IMG/VR virus record: IMGVR_UViG_3300008448_004691 | Span: 1 to 42,710 of that record | Reading direction: 5' to 3' (one strand) | DNA length: 42,710 nucleotides | Source: a virus | In this document: piece by piece, positions 15,430-22,870 of the stretch | Position numbering within the stretch: position 1 is the first letter of the stretch | Layout: every line of letters starts with the position of its first letter | Made by a program: the position numbers and the translations under genes | The notes under the pieces: model-generated | Database searches by the model: none | Told to the model about the DNA's origin: nothing | What the model saw: the letters and a program-made list of their open reading frames with translations, nothing else

Positions 15430-15840
15430 TTATCCTCTAGTCAACGCCAACACCCTATCAATTTGATCTTGGATCTTTGAAGTTCGATTAGGCCAATAGA
15501 TATATTCTTTTTCTGGATTCTTCATCAAGTTAACTAGCAAAGGCATGATGAGTTGTTCTAACTCTTTTAGATTTGCTTGCACTTCTGATTTCATGTTTTG
15601 GCGTTCTGCATCAAGTCCTAGTTTACCTTGATTGTATAGTGCCAACATTGCGTCTAACTTCTCTTCTACTCGGTGTAGTGATTCTGAAGATTGTTCAACA
15701 GTTTCTCTAACGAGAATAGTATCTTCTAATGTATTTGGATCAGTGAGTCTAGTTAACGTTGATTCGTCAACTGCACTAAATCCAAAATCATCTTCTTTTC
15801 TAAACGCTAGGTATTCTGCGGGTATTGTTCTTGTTGTCAT
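15430..15840 (-). CDS. Conserved helical phage protein
   Basis: A 136-residue protein, mostly amphipathic helix or coiled coil (residues 45-100), ending with KNPEKEYIYWPNRTSKIQDQ, a pattern I associate with conserved aquatic T4-like phage proteins. Its ATG overlaps the stop of the polymerase gene and it ends 3 bases before the membrane gene, so it belongs to the polymerase operon. It may interact with the coiled coil of the next protein (inference). Confidence 0.65.
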   Translation of the reverse strand: MTTRTIPAEYLAFRKEDDFGFSAVDESTLTRLTDPNTLEDTILVRETVEQSSESLHRVEEKLDAMLALYNQGKLGLDAERQNMKSEVQANLKELEQLIMPLLVNLMKNPEKEYIYWPNRTSKIQDQIDRVLALTRG

Positions 15841-18329
15841 GCGAAAAAACTCTCCAATGAAGAAACACGTTCAGTCTTCCAACCAATTGTGTTTACGATT
15901 GTTTTTAATGGTTCAAGATATGCTTTATCAAACTGCGTATCGTAGTCGATATATTTTTCTACGCCAAACTCTTTTGGTAAGACTGTGAGAATAGAAAATA
16001 CATTTTCTTGAACGGGATTTGGAACTTTCATGTAACAGAATTTAGTCTTGTCACCATCCTGAATAAGTTGATACTTCTTAGTCAGTTTATACTTTTTCAG
16101 AAACGCATTAAACATTATCGCACCACGCACATGCATAGGTGTGCCTTTTGAATATAGTTCCGAACTGCTCACATATTTAGACAGGTCACTAACACCACGT
16201 GGAAATGCAATGTCTTCGAATGGAAGAGTTTTGAATTCTTGTTTGAATAATTCAACGAAAGATTGAAACTCTTGTTCATTGCCATTCATCACAATCTTCA
16301 AAGACTCTTTAATCTTCTCACGGCATGACATTGGTGTGGAAGACTTAACGGCTTCAATGCCCATCATCTTCAACTTTGGTTCTGCGAATCGAACACCTTC
16401 AGAATCGTACACGTTTAGAATGTAACGTTTTTTTGCAGTCCAGATGCCTTTGTTTGCGATAACTTCACGCTTCATCTGCATCTTCTGGTCGAATGCATTC
16501 ATGTAGTCTGCTAGTTCTTGGTATGACTTGTCGATGAATGGTTCGAATTTTTCGATACACGCTTTGTTGACGAAATCAACAATCGTTTCAACTTTCGTTT
16601 CACTCTTCGATCCGTAGACCATATGTACCAGCGGACCAAGATTGACGTATACAGAGTCCGTGTCCGATGCGATAACATAATCAATATCCTTAGTCTTCAA
16701 TAGTTTGTTTAGATAACTATTCAACTTCATTTCAATCCATCGAATAGCTAGTTGACCAGACAGAGTAATTGCCTCTGCTTGGCGAATGTCAAAGAACCTA
16801 AAGTATTGATTACCAAGTGCGCCATAAGCGGAGTTCAATTGTACTTTCTTTGCGAGTTGCAAGTTCTTGTACTTTGAAATCTGATTTGTTATTTCACGTT
16901 TACGTTCTTTATCAGTTTCTTTTTCGTAAGCCTTTTGTGCCTCGATCATTTTCTTTTTGTACAATGAACGATCATCATACATGCGTTGCATCATAGCAGG
17001 CAAGAAGCCTTGCTTGTCACGCTTGAAGTAATGGCCATTGGCTGCCATGCAATATTCACCTTGTGCTTGATACTCACCATCTAGCAAATTATCAATAGAG
17101 ATACTTGTGTGGCGACCTTCAACAATTGTTTCCGGTGAAACATTGTACTGCATAATCAAGTGTGGATACAATGAGTTCAAGTCAAATGACACAACCCATT
17201 CGTGCATACCAACGATTGGGTCTTTCACATAAGCGCCAGCATACTGTTCATCTTTTGCGGTATGAACATTCTGTGGCACAACAATATTTTGTTCAATCAA
17301 TTCGTTATGAATCAAAGTATCCCACATGCGTACTTGTGTGAACACATCGGTGTAATTAACTTTAGCATCGTATGCGAGGGCAAGCGCCATGTCAATCAAT
17401 TGCATCTTAGCATCAATACGATCCACAAGTTCAACGTCATGGATGTTGTACTCAATAAACTTTTGAAAGTTTGTTCGATATAACTGATGTAGACTTTCAA
17501 CTTCAGAGTAGTCAAGTTTCTTCTCACCAAGTTCTAGATACGCAATGTGATTGAGACTAAAACTTTCTTGCTGTGAGTATGTAAACTTCTTGTACAATTC
17601 AATGTAATCAAGAATAGCAATACCCACCAAATCGAATGCTACTTGTTGTTTGTTGTGAATCGTAGTTGTACGTTCACCGATTCTACGGAATGGTGATAGA
17701 CGCTTTGCAGTATTGTCGCCCATGAGTCTTGTGATACGATTGTTCAGATATGGAATATCAAAGAATTGAATGTTCCAACCAGTCACAATGTCTGGTGATG
17801 TTTCTTCCCACATGTCAAGAAAGCGCATGATGAGATTATTTTCATCACGACACTTCATGTATGTTACATCATCACGATAGTTATCATAGTCACCACAGCC
17901 AAACACATAGAAGTGTCCTGATATCTTAAATGTGATTGCAGTGATTGGCTCACTCGCAGATGCAGGTTCAGGAAAACCATTTTCAGAACCAACCTCAATG
18001 TCGATGTTCGCAATCTTAATTTGGTCTGGATCATAATCTAATTTGCCTGGATACGCTTCATTGATATAAACGTATGGAAAGTTTGTTGAGCCATACACTT
18101 TGAAGTTGTCAACATCTTCATAACGTTTCATAAACTCTGTTGCGTCACGCATTGTGCCTTGCGATACTGCCGCAAGCGATTGGCCATCTAATGTTCGATA
18201 ATCACCATCTTTAGATTGTAGATATAACGTTGGATTGTATTCGACCTTATCGGTAAATCGTTTGCCGTTGTTGTATCCACGAACAAGAATGTTGTTGCCG
18301 AGTTTAGAAAAATGCGTATAAAATTTCAT
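15837..18329 (-). CDS. 43: Family B DNA polymerase (T4 gp43)
   Basis: An 830-residue replicative polymerase with proofreading. Exonuclease motifs: Exo I NIDIE (D110, E112), Exo II GWNIQFFDIPYL and Exo III YNIHDVEL. Polymerase motifs: A DLNSLYPHL, B KKVQLNSAYGALGN and C ASDTDSVYV, with both catalytic aspartates. The motifs are complete and no inteins or frameshifts are seen. The C-terminus WKTERVSSLESFFA resembles the clamp-binding tail of T4-type polymerases. The start overlaps the stop of the Sm-like gene as TAATG. Confidence 0.97.
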   Translation of the reverse strand: MKFYTHFSKLGNNILVRGYNNGKRFTDKVEYNPTLYLQSKDGDYRTLDGQSLAAVSQGTMRDATEFMKRYEDVDNFKVYGSTNFPYVYINEAYPGKLDYDPDQIKIANIDIEVGSENGFPEPASASEPITAITFKISGHFYVFGCGDYDNYRDDVTYMKCRDENNLIMRFLDMWEETSPDIVTGWNIQFFDIPYLNNRITRLMGDNTAKRLSPFRRIGERTTTIHNKQQVAFDLVGIAILDYIELYKKFTYSQQESFSLNHIAYLELGEKKLDYSEVESLHQLYRTNFQKFIEYNIHDVELVDRIDAKMQLIDMALALAYDAKVNYTDVFTQVRMWDTLIHNELIEQNIVVPQNVHTAKDEQYAGAYVKDPIVGMHEWVVSFDLNSLYPHLIMQYNVSPETIVEGRHTSISIDNLLDGEYQAQGEYCMAANGHYFKRDKQGFLPAMMQRMYDDRSLYKKKMIEAQKAYEKETDKERKREITNQISKYKNLQLAKKVQLNSAYGALGNQYFRFFDIRQAEAITLSGQLAIRWIEMKLNSYLNKLLKTKDIDYVIASDTDSVYVNLGPLVHMVYGSKSETKVETIVDFVNKACIEKFEPFIDKSYQELADYMNAFDQKMQMKREVIANKGIWTAKKRYILNVYDSEGVRFAEPKLKMMGIEAVKSSTPMSCREKIKESLKIVMNGNEQEFQSFVELFKQEFKTLPFEDIAFPRGVSDLSKYVSSSELYSKGTPMHVRGAIMFNAFLKKYKLTKKYQLIQDGDKTKFCYMKVPNPVQENVFSILTVLPKEFGVEKYIDYDTQFDKAYLEPLKTIVNTIGWKTERVSSLESFFA

Positions 18330-18674: not shown

Positions 18675-18758
18675 TTATTTAAAACGCTCTGCTTTATGTC
18701 TCTTTGCGTCTTGAATTGCTTCAAGTAAAGCAATAAAGAAGTTTTTTATTGATTTCAT
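18675..18758 (-). CDS. 27-residue micro-protein coupled to Hsp20
   Basis: An ORF of 27 codons begins MKSIKNFFIALLEAIQDAK and ends HKAERFK. Its ATG overlaps the TGA stop of hsp20 (ATGA at 18758-18755), a classic coupling signal, and its stop lies just before a terminator. The peptide would form a single amphipathic helix with a hydrophobic first half and a basic end. The function is unknown; a membrane-active or chaperone-associated peptide is possible. Confidence 0.6.
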   Translation of the reverse strand: MKSIKNFFIALLEAIQDAKRHKAERFK

Positions 18759-19264
18759 AATTCATCCTCAGTTAAATATTGCTGAGATGATTTTTTAGTT
18801 TTAGGCGCAGTATCAACTGTGTCTTTAACTTCAATCTTCTTTGGCTTCTTATGTTCTGGAATGATTCGTTCCAAAGCAATCTTCAACATACCATTAATCA
18901 AAGCGGCATCTTGAATTTCGATTTGGTCATCAAGTGCGAATGTGCGAGTGAACGCACGATTAGCAATACCCTTGAACAAGAAATTATCTCCATCATCTTT
19001 TGTGTTACCGGCAACAATTAGTTTGTTGTCTTCTAAAGTGATATCGATTTCCTGTTTACCAAAACCAGCAACCGCAATTTCAATGACGTATGTATTGTCA
19101 CCAGTCTTGCGAATGTTGTAAGGTGGGTAGTTAGGAATGTTCTTAGTCACATCATCATGTATTTTTGCTAGTCGATTGAATTGCTCATCGAAGCCAACAA
19201 AGAATTTATCAAAATCTTTGAAACCTTGTCCGCCAAAAAGTGCGGGAATTGGTGTGTGTCCCAT
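18755..19264 (-). CDS. hsp20: Small heat-shock protein (Hsp20/IbpA family)
   Basis: A 169-residue alpha-crystallin-type chaperone from the ATG at 19264 with AGGAG upstream; a longer start is not supported. The N-terminal region MGHTPIPALFGGQGFKDF is aromatic-rich, the alpha-crystallin domain runs from about PPYNIRKTGDNTYVIEIAV to MLKIALERIIPE, and the I-x-I-like tail is followed by a Lys-rich end. Small Hsps hold unfolding proteins and are common in aquatic T4-like phages. It is in a unit driven from a late promoter, so a virion-assembly role is plausible (inference). Confidence 0.92.
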   Translation of the reverse strand: MGHTPIPALFGGQGFKDFDKFFVGFDEQFNRLAKIHDDVTKNIPNYPPYNIRKTGDNTYVIEIAVAGFGKQEIDITLEDNKLIVAGNTKDDGDNFLFKGIANRAFTRTFALDDQIEIQDAALINGMLKIALERIIPEHKKPKKIEVKDTVDTAPKTKKSSQQYLTEDEL

Positions 19265-19277
19265 TTTGTATCTCCTC

Positions 19278-19505
19278 TTACTTATTTTTTGAAAACGCTT
19301 TTTTAGCGTCAAAAGTGTATGCAGACATGCCAAGAGTTGTAAAAAACTTATTGACTTCTACTGCAACAGCTTTTGCGTAAAGTGTTTGCGCTTCAATGAA
19401 AGTGTTGAGGGGTTTTGCAAGTTCTTCATTCTTGACGAATGTTTTGACGAATTGCGTTTTTGTGCCTTGAAAAGTATCGATAGCACTATTGATGTTTTGT
19501 AACAT
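19278..19505 (-). CDS. Phasin-like small helical protein
   Basis: A 75-residue protein with AGGAG before the ATG. It is almost all helix, with the pattern of phasins (QGTKTQFVKTFVKNEELAK, then AQTLYAKAVAVEVNKFF). Phasins coat polyhydroxyalkanoate granules in bacteria and can act as chaperones. The assignment is by pattern only. It lies between a structured leader RNA and hsp20, which suggests a shared proteostasis or membrane role. Confidence 0.45.
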   Translation of the reverse strand: MLQNINSAIDTFQGTKTQFVKTFVKNEELAKPLNTFIEAQTLYAKAVAVEVNKFFTTLGMSAYTFDAKKAFSKNK

Positions 19506-19527
19506 AGTTTCTCCTATTAAGCGAGTT

Positions 19528-19559
19528 AAAAAATAAAATTGATACCCCGAAGGCGTATC
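19528..19559 (-). terminator. UUCG-loop intrinsic terminator in the leader RNA
   Basis: GATAC-G-CC, a C(TTCG)G tetraloop and GG-GTATC form a stable stem with one bulged G, followed by AATTTTATTTTTT. C(UUCG)G loops are typical of T4-type terminators. It lies upstream of the phasin-like ATG, so it controls that unit or ends a small RNA. Confidence 0.85.
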
Positions 19560-19661
19560 ATTAAAGTCCTGCTTACTGGCTACAGGGGCACCATATCGTT
19601 GTGCCAGCTTTAGACGCTCCTAAGGTAGAAGAGCCATTTACGTTCCCATCCCTGAGATACG
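19528..19661 (-). ncRNA. Structured, switch-like RNA element
   Basis: A stretch richer in G+C than its flanks, lying between the winged-helix and phasin-like genes. On the minus strand it can fold as a closing helix P1 (CGTATC 19661-19656 with GATACG 19559-19554), a hairpin P2 (GCTCTT/AGGAGC, 19634-19616, 7-base loop) and a long P3 (TAAAG-CTGGC-ACA with TGT-A-GCCAG and CTTTA; 19612-19600 with 19584-19562). CAGGG (19655-19651) could also pair with CCCTG in the P3 loop. The 3' strand of P1 is also the 5' arm of the terminator, so the two are exclusive. I cannot match it to a known riboswitch class. It may be a leader switch or an independent small RNA. Confidence 0.6.
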
Positions 19662-19663
19662 TT

Positions 19664-19671
19664 TATTTATA
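19664..19671 (-). promoter_or_regulatory. T4-type late promoter TATAAATA
   Basis: Exact late consensus just after the stop of the winged-helix gene. The predicted start near 19658 would lie inside the 5' strand of P1 of the RNA element, so late transcripts may lack a complete P1 while readthrough transcripts keep it. Confidence 0.8.
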
Positions 19672-19676
19672 ACAGA

Positions 19677-19904
19677 TTAAGCCTGTCCAACCATTCTACG
19701 TGAAACAAAATATGTTGTATTACCTTCTGTGTTCATTGCTGTACGAACTTTGTAACCGCACTGGCGCAAGTCACTCATACGGGCACGAAGGTTTTTAACG
19801 CCAAACAAAGACCTTGCTTGGGGTGCAGAGATTCCACGACCTGTACCACGCAAGTACGATACCAAGAGTTCTGTCTGTGTTTTGCTAGAATTTACAAATG
19901 CCAT
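19677..19904 (-). CDS. Small winged-helix DNA-binding protein
   Basis: A 75-residue basic protein with GAGG before the ATG. The order QTELLVSYLRGTGRGIS, APQARSLFGVKNLRARMSDL, RQCGYKVRT and a final TYFVSRRM hairpin fits a winged helix-turn-helix in which NLRARMSDLR is the recognition helix. Similar small proteins occur in T4-like aquatic phages and bacteria (from memory). Probably a transcription regulator; its target is unknown. It ends just before a late promoter. Confidence 0.65.
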   Translation of the reverse strand: MAFVNSSKTQTELLVSYLRGTGRGISAPQARSLFGVKNLRARMSDLRQCGYKVRTAMNTEGNTTYFVSRRMVGQA

Positions 19905-20226: not shown

Positions 20227-20255
20227 ATTATCTCACATTATACAACGTTTGTCAA
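20227..20255 (-). promoter_or_regulatory. Sigma70 promoter for the exported small protein
   Basis: TTGACA at 20255-20250, 17 bases, GATAAT at 20232-20227 with a TG two bases upstream. The -35 box contains the TGA stop codon of dps. An alternative TATAAT lies in the spacer, only 7 bases from the -35. Confidence 0.75.
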
Positions 20256-20689
20256 GCCCTGATAGTTGACCTAATCATCCATGCATGTTTATTGAATGCA
20301 TCTTGACGCTCTGCCATAAAGTTACTTATGTTGTGGCAACGTTCTTGTTCTGCAAGTTCGTATGTACGTTGAATGCTTGTCAGCATTGTTGGAATATCAT
20401 CTAATAATCTTTGCATCATCACTTCTGCTGGTGGCACAGTTTCGTCACCTTGGATTTGTGATAACTGAATGAAGCGATTAAAACTTCCTGGTGCATATGA
20501 ATCCAATGTTCGAATCTCTTCTGCAATTTTATCCACAACACCATACACTTCAGTATAGATGTTTTCTAAAAAATCGTGATACTGAGGGAAGTTAGGACCA
20601 GTTACGTTCCAATGGTAGTAATGCGCCTTCAGATAAAATGCGTAGTGGTTCGCTAAAGACACTTTTAGTGATTGTACTAGTTCTTCCAT
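20252..20689 (-). CDS. dps: Dps-like ferritin (DNA-protection protein)
   Basis: A 145-residue Dps family protein with the complete ferroxidase site: H26, H38, D53 and E57, spaced exactly as H51, H63, D78 and E82 in E. coli Dps (HWNVTGPNF, YHDF, VDKIAEEIR). Dps dodecamers oxidise and store iron with H2O2 and shield DNA. The basic N-terminal tail of E. coli Dps is absent, so direct DNA binding is less certain. It begins one base after regA, the last gene of the clamp-loader operon, so it is expressed with the replisome. Confidence 0.9.
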   Translation of the reverse strand: MEELVQSLKVSLANHYAFYLKAHYYHWNVTGPNFPQYHDFLENIYTEVYGVVDKIAEEIRTLDSYAPGSFNRFIQLSQIQGDETVPPAEVMMQRLLDDIPTMLTSIQRTYELAEQERCHNISNFMAERQDAFNKHAWMIRSTIRA

Positions 20690-21507: not shown

Positions 21508-21935
21508 AATGTAATCAATTTCAATGTGTTTACCGGAACTTTATAGAAATATTCTCCATCTTTTACATACTTGTTTTTATTTTCTACAAGAGGACATTGT
21601 AACACAATTTCGGCTTTACAGCAAAACATTCTAGTCAAAATTTTATTTACGGAAAAGAAAAAAGTTGGCAATTCATTTTCAAGTAATTTCTTTTTTCTAC
21701 TAGGAACATTTAATGTGTCAAAAGGAAAATTATCTTTATCCCAATTATTTCTAACTTCTACTTCTGCATATCCAACAACAGTATTGTTTTTTGTTAAAAT
21801 TAAATCTACCCCATATAAATCTGAATTGTCTATGGCATCTATATTTAATTTGGACTTGAAATAATTTTTTACTACAGTTCTGCCAACATCATCATACTTG
21901 TCGTATAGTGAAGGATCAAATTTTTTATTAATCAT
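21504..21935 (-). CDS. Nuclease-fold-like protein inserted between clamp-loader genes
   Basis: A 143-residue protein of unrecognised family. YGVDLIL (D44), then GYAEVEVRNNW (E58, E60) and VPSRKKKLL resemble a PD-(D/E)XK nuclease core, but ExE replaces ExK. It is joined by ATGA overlaps to gene 44 upstream and gene 62 downstream, genes that are adjacent in T4. The sequence is AT-rich even for this genome. A recent insertion that kept the coupling is likely; function unknown. Confidence 0.55.
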   Translation of the reverse strand: MINKKFDPSLYDKYDDVGRTVVKNYFKSKLNIDAIDNSDLYGVDLILTKNNTVVGYAEVEVRNNWDKDNFPFDTLNVPSRKKKLLENELPTFFFSVNKILTRMFCCKAEIVLQCPLVENKNKYVKDGEYFYKVPVNTLKLITL

Positions 21936-22870
21936 TTGAATTCGCAGTCAACCATCACTTCTGTCAAGAAAGCGACAAAGTTAATTTCTTGGTCAACGAC
22001 AAATGCAGACTTGTATTGATAGTCGGCAAGCAATAGAACCATACGTGGAACAGAATCAGGCTTCAAGCATTCGTTGCTGTTATCAAAGATTCGTTTGAAT
22101 AGTACATAAGGTTCATTGTCTAGATTCTCTGCAACCCACTTACGCATACCCGTGAAGTCTTTTGCTTTTAATCTTTCGACTAATGACTTGAAATTGTCAC
22201 TTGAGATATTTGCAAGAATTCCAGTATCGATCTTACCTGTAGCAGAGTAACGTTGCAGTTCATTGAGAACACGCCTCCAATCAGGAAAGTGTTTCATAAT
22301 AAGTTCAGCAACAACCTTCTCTTCAAATTCTACATTTTCTTTTTGCAGAATGCCAGTCATACGTTTCATAAAACGACCAGCAAGTTTTGGCTTGTCTGAT
22401 GCGTTTATCTTAAAATGTACAACGGAGCACCTACTGTGGAGAGGGGCGATGATACGATTAAGAAAGTTGCAAGTAAGGATAAAACCACAATTAGCAGAAA
22501 ACTCTTCCATGAAGTTTCGTAATGCGGGTTGAGTAGATTGCGGATTAAGGTAATCAGCCTCGTCAAGAATAACATATTTACGACCACCAGAGAATGATAC
22601 GGTTGAGGCAAAGTTTTTAATTTCATTTCGCAAGGTATCGATGTTGCCATTCATCGATCCGTTAATAACAATATAAGTACATCCAAGTTCTTCAAGCATA
22701 GCCTTTGCGATAGTAGTTTTACCAACGCCAGGACCGCCCGTAAGAATTAGATTGGGAACGTTCTTTTGCTCAACGAATTGTTGGAACGTAGCCTTTAAGT
22801 CTGCTGGAAGAATTGTCTCTTCAACAGTTTTTGGTCGATACTTTTCGACCCACAAGAAATCTTGTAGCAT
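21932..22870 (-). CDS. 44: Clamp-loader AAA+ subunit (T4 gp44)
   Basis: A 312-residue AAA+ ATPase. Walker A GGPGVGKT at 45-52, Walker B VILDEADYL near 100-107, sensor TCNFLNRI and the SRC arginine finger in PLHSRCS mark a clamp-loader motor. The N-terminus LWVEKYRPKTVEE is the family hallmark. It loads gp45 on primer ends using ATP. It lies downstream of the DsbA-like gene and a hairpin, and begins the 44, nuclease-like, 62, regA, dps operon. Confidence 0.96.
   Translation of the reverse strand: MLQDFLWVEKYRPKTVEETILPADLKATFQQFVEQKNVPNLILTGGPGVGKTTIAKAMLEELGCTYIVINGSMNGNIDTLRNEIKNFASTVSFSGGRKYVILDEADYLNPQSTQPALRNFMEEFSANCGFILTCNFLNRIIAPLHSRCSVVHFKINASDKPKLAGRFMKRMTGILQKENVEFEEKVVAELIMKHFPDWRRVLNELQRYSATGKIDTGILANISSDNFKSLVERLKAKDFTGMRKWVAENLDNEPYVLFKRIFDNSNECLKPDSVPRMVLLLADYQYKSAFVVDQEINFVAFLTEVMVDCEFK

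Follow-up and report, generated by a model that had tools for sequence, protein, structure and literature searches.

The DNA that we examined (the window) is an IMG/VR virus record of 42,710 bases that carries T4-type replication genes (DNA polymerase, 15840-18329; clamp loader, 21935-22870). On its minus strand, positions 19503-19671 are the 5' leader of a T4-like phage operon in which a 75-aa 'phasin-like' gene is followed by the gene for the small heat-shock protein Hsp20. 'Phasin-like' is the label of an earlier note on this DNA and is used here only as a label, neither Pfam nor PHROG confirming it. The leader is intergenic, lying between a winged-helix ORF (19677-19904; HTH_39) and the 75-aa ORF; a ferritin-like gene (20252-20689; PF00210, 3.9e-20) is situated upstream of the winged-helix ORF. 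Read from its 5' side, the leader consists of a late-type promoter, a hairpin with a GNRA loop, a hairpin with an ACCUUA loop, a pseudoknot domain and two hairpins directly before the start codon:

19664-19671, minus strand: T4-type late promoter TATAAATA, by motif match, with transcription probably starting near 19658
19644-19657, minus strand: hairpin A, UCUCA-GGGA-UGGGA, with a GNRA-type loop, from the MFE structure; presumptive 5' end of the late transcript
19616-19634, minus strand: hairpin B, GCUC..GAGC, with CUACCUUA in the loop; 19634-19631 pairs with 19619-19616
19568-19608, minus strand: pseudoknot domain, with stems S1 (19605-19601 with 19591-19587) and S2 (19586-19583 with 19571-19568)
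19608-19606 (GCU) with 19577-19575 (AGU), minus strand: crossing pairing X:X' of the pseudoknot domain
19540-19560, minus strand: hairpin I of a ROSE-like element, with bulged G19554 and a UUCG loop, supported by covariation
19511-19525, minus strand: hairpin II of the ROSE-like element, CUCGCU-UAAU-AGGAG, with U(C)GCU opposite the Shine-Dalgarno (SD) sequence and bulged G19522
19278-19505, minus strand: first operon gene, 75 aa, 'phasin-like'; no match in Pfam or PHROG
18755-19264, minus strand: second gene, small heat-shock protein Hsp20 (PF00011, 6.3e-17; phrog_432, 2.7e-42)

Both the late motif and the minus-strand intergenic leader are as the earlier note described them. We take TATAAATA to be a probable T4-type late promoter with its start a few bases downstream. 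Its count in the window is by itself not significant (4 found against 2.63 expected). Of 118 non-redundant leaders, 88 have a late-type motif no further than 260 nt away, compared with 71 of 635 control genes, and in 23 of the 118 it lies no more than 45 nt before hairpin II.

The folding energy of the stretch to which the earlier note had drawn attention (19528-19671) is unremarkable (z = -1.70; 8 of 200 shuffles fold equally well) and alone says little; we judge the RNA to be real because its relatives conserve the structure. Searches for homologues with the two flanking proteins (80 loci retained per protein) gave alignments in which the core is strongly kept and many substitutions inside helices preserve pairing, hairpin A (UCYY..GGGA..GGGA) and hairpin B being conserved by eye. 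The exact core pattern of the stretch matches 107 stretches of viral contigs, blastn of the stretch against phages gave no match and an Rfam scan of the window at gathering score returned no family. A coding remnant, one of the outcomes that the earlier note had named as refuting its RNA, was rejected, as the frame reads MALLP-stop and the homologues lack that ATG and carry small indels.

What has held up from the earlier note is therefore a conserved, cis-acting structured RNA between the late-type promoter and the phasin-like/Hsp20 genes, whereas the fold and the switch that it proposed were mostly wrong. Its helix P2 is our hairpin B, and is both present and conserved. Its helix P1 and its CAGGG:CCCTG pseudoknot were scored in the 23 distinct combinations found among 80 homologues carrying GGGATGGGA. 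All six pairs of P1 form in only 3 combinations, and four or fewer in 16; CAGGG:CCCTG is complete in 5, its GGG:CCC core being kept but drifting in context (CCGGG:CCCAG, TCGGG:CCCTG). In the same set all five pairs of hairpin I form in 21 combinations, the other two (L078, L154) being mis-anchored. Helix P3 gives way to S1, S2 and a different pseudoknot, and the MFE structure of the stretch includes S1 and S2 and excludes P1 and P3. Thus, of the helices for which compensatory changes had been anticipated, P2 is kept while P1 and P3 are unsupported.

The pseudoknot domain that takes the place of P3 has comparative support of its own, its covariation being strong. S1 changes through several standard pairs among homologues. 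When elements were picked by S1 and S2 only (44 non-redundant), the variable position of X:X' proved to be Watson-Crick in 39 (UA 24, CG 8, GC 4, AU 3) and failed in 5, compared with a mean of 18.2 and a maximum of 26 in shuffles and with 6-12 in slid controls. The domain matches no Rfam family in the window or in the other loci scanned. Its signature occurs within the last 130 nt of 46 of 118 non-redundant leaders, and the same pseudoknot (CCUGUA..AGUAAGCAGGA) is found in phage contigs away from hsp20, also before unrelated genes (by eye in L372, L388, L389, L405, L407, L413, L415, L418, L420, L429 and L441); in L372, L388 and L405 it directly follows a predicted tRNA gene. It is this position after tRNA ends that suggests to us a shield for 5' ends, and we think that the upstream hairpins and the pseudoknot are optional modules that may protect the 5' end of the mRNA or make it accessible to a protein. 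Additional probable pseudoknots were seen by eye in other leaders (CCGUUUGAUGCUACGG..GGCGUC; AAGG-loop-CCUU crossed by GUAGU:ACUAC). We also observed that the AGGA of the pseudoknot's last stem and an ATG in hairpin I together resemble a start, in frame with the phasin-like gene in L161, L165, L175, L206, L252, L255 and L259; the corresponding ATG in the window (19561) is out of frame, and so the resemblance is probably an accident.

Hairpin II adjoins the stretch treated in the earlier note, just beyond its edge, and covers the SD of the first operon gene. With as many as 3 mismatches allowed, its motif matches the window once only. Both the anti-SD and the SD are nearly invariant among relatives, and hairpin II consequently offers little covariation. 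The window has the features expected of a ROSE-like element: (i) the 3'-proximal hairpin pairs U(U/C)GCU imperfectly with the SD and contains a bulged G; (ii) there are two to four hairpins, with a stable one (hairpin I) before the sensor; and (iii) the motif precedes an hsp20 operon, hsp20 being the second gene in the window. Short ROSE elements of two hairpins are marked by U(U/C)GCU opposite the SD, according to the accessible part of PMC3669281. Comparison of relatives shows that the leader ends in such a two-hairpin element, whose hairpin II contains a bulged G and a U(C/U)GCU anti-SD that can hide the SD, and that this element is kept at phage hsp20 operons.

Hairpin I was evaluated in 113 non-redundant leaders picked by hairpin II only, with YGCY-loop-GG as the anchor. 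All four flanking pairs form in 89 of the 105 anchored leaders, compared with 0-4 in slid controls; 8 of the 113 were not anchored, but in three of these 8 (L380, L410, L537) the hairpin can be recognised by eye, its loop being longer. In alignment A2 (54 of 67 pieces, which were preselected for pairing) the covariation score was 0.650, compared with 0.200 when shuffled and at most 0.164 when slid. The earlier note had read this hairpin (19560-19540) as a C(UUCG)G terminator, and the hairpin and a T-rich run after it are indeed present in the window. However, a U-tract (5 or more T among the first 8 nt past the stem) follows hairpin I in only 37 of 105 leaders, and a conserved intrinsic terminator was rejected on this ground. 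A terminator scan of the window did not list hairpin I, possibly on account of the bulge. Where the late motif lies within 45 nt of hairpin II, a terminator at this place would leave almost no transcript. As its pairing is kept together with hairpin II, U-tracts are scarce and leaders can be this short, we consider hairpin I to be part of the SD device rather than a conserved terminator. It would then safeguard folding or stability, the role proposed for its counterpart in Pseudomonas ibpA; the available text of PMC3669281 states that hairpin I of a ROSE element may stabilise the transcript.

The best relaxed Rfam match for the leader was ROSE_3 (RF02523; 16.4 bits, E 0.32), covering 19500-19562. 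No phage scanned reached the ROSE_3 gathering score of 43 bits, the best being Methylophilales phage Melnitz (34.1 bits, E 4e-4), followed by Agrobacterium phage Atu_ph07 (28.0 bits, E 0.014) and P-RSM1 (21.8 bits), whereas a Pseudomonas ibpA-type control scored 69.2 bits. In relaxed ROSE_3 scans no more than 3 of 10 hsp20 loci from public phages gave a line (E up to 5 or 3) and none of 13 IMG/VR loci did (E up to 2); among 94 genomes of one class there were 4 weak matches, none above the cut-off. A covariance model built from 24 IMG/VR elements (R1) found the element in 19 of 21 public records outside its training set (E 2e-11 to 0.046). Two more matches had E values of 0.3 and 0.45. The model did not detect Atu_ph07, Callisto or the Pseudomonas ibpA control. 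Across 17 whole phage genomes or long contigs R1 gave one main match each and one weak extra (G113, E 0.039). For the 12 of these that are named phages, the other five being IMG/VR contigs, coordinates place the match at the hsp20 start in all 12 (within 20 nt in Mosig). On the 94 genomes of one class R1 gave 2 matches, one of them at the phage-type place of L532.

The hairpin precedes the heat-shock genes in nearly all of the related aquatic phages examined. How general the element is can be judged from loci that were fetched by Hsp20 alignment alone. Among the best 80 of 595 such IMG/VR loci, 78 have the wider motif ahead of the operon's first gene; of the two misses, L466 has the motif but its search region was clipped, and L479 is a truncated contig. 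The strict motif precedes the hsp20 or phasin start in 75 of these best 80 of 595, in some cases inside the end of the phasin gene. All 21 public phage records, hand-picked from 502 matches with bacterial-ibpA-like records left out, have the motif, Callisto and Atu_ph07 requiring its wider form. S-PM2, syn9 and P-SSM5 are cultured phages with the element. Control SD-bearing starts in the same loci have it in 16 of 1658 cases (8 of 665 when ORFs are limited to 150 aa or longer). The exact hairpin II pattern with a start codon matches at least 120 viral stretches and none in genome_contigs, and the gene behind 99 distinct exact-pattern leaders is by eye nearly always Hsp20 or a short phasin-like gene (exceptions include L300 and L343). 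Altogether the fetched DNA contains 232 distinct leaders with 300 nt upstream, many of which were fetched by the motif itself.

Counted by start, the strict motif is present at 98 of 110 phasin starts and 147 of 240 hsp20 starts. The 12 phasin starts without it comprise 8 start-calling errors inside the leader and 4 that truly lack it (L365, L380, L410, L438); in L380, L410 and L438 the hsp20-type start has a hairpin of its own. Among the 93 hsp20 starts without it, 57 are second genes by coordinates, 2 have the wider motif and 34 are others. On inspection by eye almost all of the 34 are second genes, the distance rule having missed the phasin in front of them; these 34 also include one start-calling error (L212) and one locus with another first gene (L300). 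In Prochlorococcus phage P-HM1 (L539, 342-395) the annotated hsp20 start, a GTG, falls inside hairpin I, and the true start is probably the ATG that follows hairpin II. The last codons of the phasin-like gene can themselves spell UUYGCU..AAGGAG before hsp20 (L472, L473, L475, L483, L486, L508-L510), a possible second ROSE-like pairing that is not seen in the window.

A looser motif gave 12 matches in genome_contigs. By eye, 5 of them precede a phage-type hsp20 (L526, L528, L529, L532, L534), two of these sites (L526 and L532, there numbered L552 and L565) having been covered by an Hsp20 profile search, and the other 7 resemble chance matches. The five loci are filed as bacterial or archaeal genomes and are probably phage contigs that were binned or co-assembled. 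Conversely, some 'phage' records look like bacterial ibpA and are probably host DNA (L563; in INPHARED, Salmonella, Campylobacter A11a/A18a and Pseudomonas Y7).

Folding models predict very little temperature response. In the window the MFE structure keeps hairpin II from 4 to 50 C, and mean SD openness is approximately 0.14, 0.18 and 0.29 at 25, 37 and 50 C; the same model gives 0.05, 0.12 and 0.26 for the Pseudomonas control. Hairpin II is in the MFE structure of 72, 71, 73 and 73 of 115 non-redundant leaders at 15, 25, 37 and 42 C, near-constant counts that predict no melting, and at 37 C it is absent from that of 42 of the 115. Among five other leaders folded singly, S-CRM01 has a largely open SD and P-RSM1 forms another hairpin. 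Mean SD openness at 37 C is 0.35 in leaders compared with 0.45 in control genes (120 each), and it rises no more steeply in leaders. Since the non-canonical pairs reported for ROSE hairpins are outside such models, these predictions neither prove nor refute sensing.

Taking these findings together, we think it likely that the leader of this late phage small heat-shock operon acts as a ROSE-like RNA thermometer. The architecture is established by comparison, and it is the sensing of temperature that we infer. At normal temperature hairpin II would keep translation of the phasin-like/Hsp20 operon low, and warming would free the ribosome site, so that synthesis of the chaperone would fall late in infection, at the time when phage proteins would need it. 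A more elaborate scheme, which we offer only tentatively, is that two devices are joined in the leader: a ROSE-type thermometer that is phage-wide and, upstream of it, the CCUGUA..AGUAAGCAGG pseudoknot domain, which would be a new class of phage RNA. The pseudoknot would protect mRNA 5' ends against host RNases or be bound by a factor from host or phage, and the late chaperone mRNA would be both stabilised and temperature-gated.

An unlikely competitor is that hairpin II is a translational operator and not a thermometer, with phage Hsp20 (like E. coli IbpA) or another protein binding the leader and repressing translation. The rich structure of the leader and the slight predicted response to temperature are consistent with this, as is the statement, in the accessible part of PMC10474464, that E. 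coli IbpA binds the 5' UTR of its own mRNA, with an apparent preference for structured RNA, thermometers included. On the other hand, the arrangement of U(Y)GCU and a bulged G is the thermometer signature in the parts of the published work that we draw on, and the same portion of PMC10474464 describes IbpA feedback and ROSE elements as coexisting, so an operator may add to a thermometer and not replace it. We regard as improbable that the leader is a separate small RNA of about 120 nt that begins at the late promoter and ends at the U-tract, with transcription also reading through into the operon. Its 5' end and the U-tract are well placed for this in the window and the pseudoknot module also occurs away from hsp20, but the U-tract is not conserved, an SD inside hairpin II follows directly behind and the terminator scan is without hairpin I, for which the bulge may be responsible. 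Least probable of all is the riboswitch or attenuator of the earlier note, in which P1 and the terminator exclude each other and termination depends on which promoter was used. GATACG can indeed pair with CGTATC in the window, and a T-rich run does follow the hairpin; against this are the rarity of complete P1 and of the U-tract among relatives, the retention of hairpin I with hairpin II and the nearness of the late motif to hairpin I in minimal leaders.

The closest known relative of the thermometer that we favor is the short ROSE element of Pseudomonas ibpA (RF02523). That element shares with ours the limitation to two hairpins, the AUGCC..GGGU sequence and bulged G of hairpin I, the U(U/C)GCU facing the SD in hairpin II and the small heat-shock gene that follows. 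The phage element differs in being phage-borne, in having a shorter hairpin II and in scoring below the Rfam cut-off; it is often behind a late-type promoter, sometimes has extra upstream RNA modules and is sometimes followed first by a phasin-like gene. The manA RNA (RF01745) is described, in the portion of PMC2864571 at hand, as a structured RNA of T4-like cyanophages reported near ibpA genes. It was rejected as an identity for our leader, which has no manA line at E up to 10, and it was found in 0 of 9 IMG/VR records; 5 of 11 named phages have one manA each, that of P-SSM5 lying before purL and not directly before hsp20.

There is precedent for thermometers in phage 5' UTRs. Those of lambda cIII, SP-beta blyA (a fourU element) and a sigma-70 gene are treated in the accessible parts of PMC11182007, PMC10586365 and PMC4166951; they control other genes, and they differ in kind, blyA being fourU and cIII a two-conformation switch. 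Few phage thermometers have been reported: the available text of PMC11182007 calls blyA only the second, to which the sigma-70 thermometer is added. Cyanophage Hsp20 genes, the same gene as behind our element, are the subject of PMC3827213, which does not contain the words 'thermometer', 'ROSE' or 'untranslated'. No report of a ROSE element at phage hsp20 was found in the open-access PMC literature, as far as its texts were accessible, most subscription papers being outside the search. As far as these searches reach, a ROSE-like thermometer leader is new in phages.

The element explains the constancy of the few bases before phage hsp20 genes and suggests a corrected gene start in P-HM1, and the comparison that revealed it has also exposed a covarying pseudoknot that matches no Rfam family in the places scanned. 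If the thermometer works, phages named for Synechococcus, Prochlorococcus, Pelagibacter, Methylophilales and Agrobacterium, together with many uncultured ones, would gate a chaperone by temperature in the manner of bacteria, and a link between water temperature and phage production would become testable by reporter.
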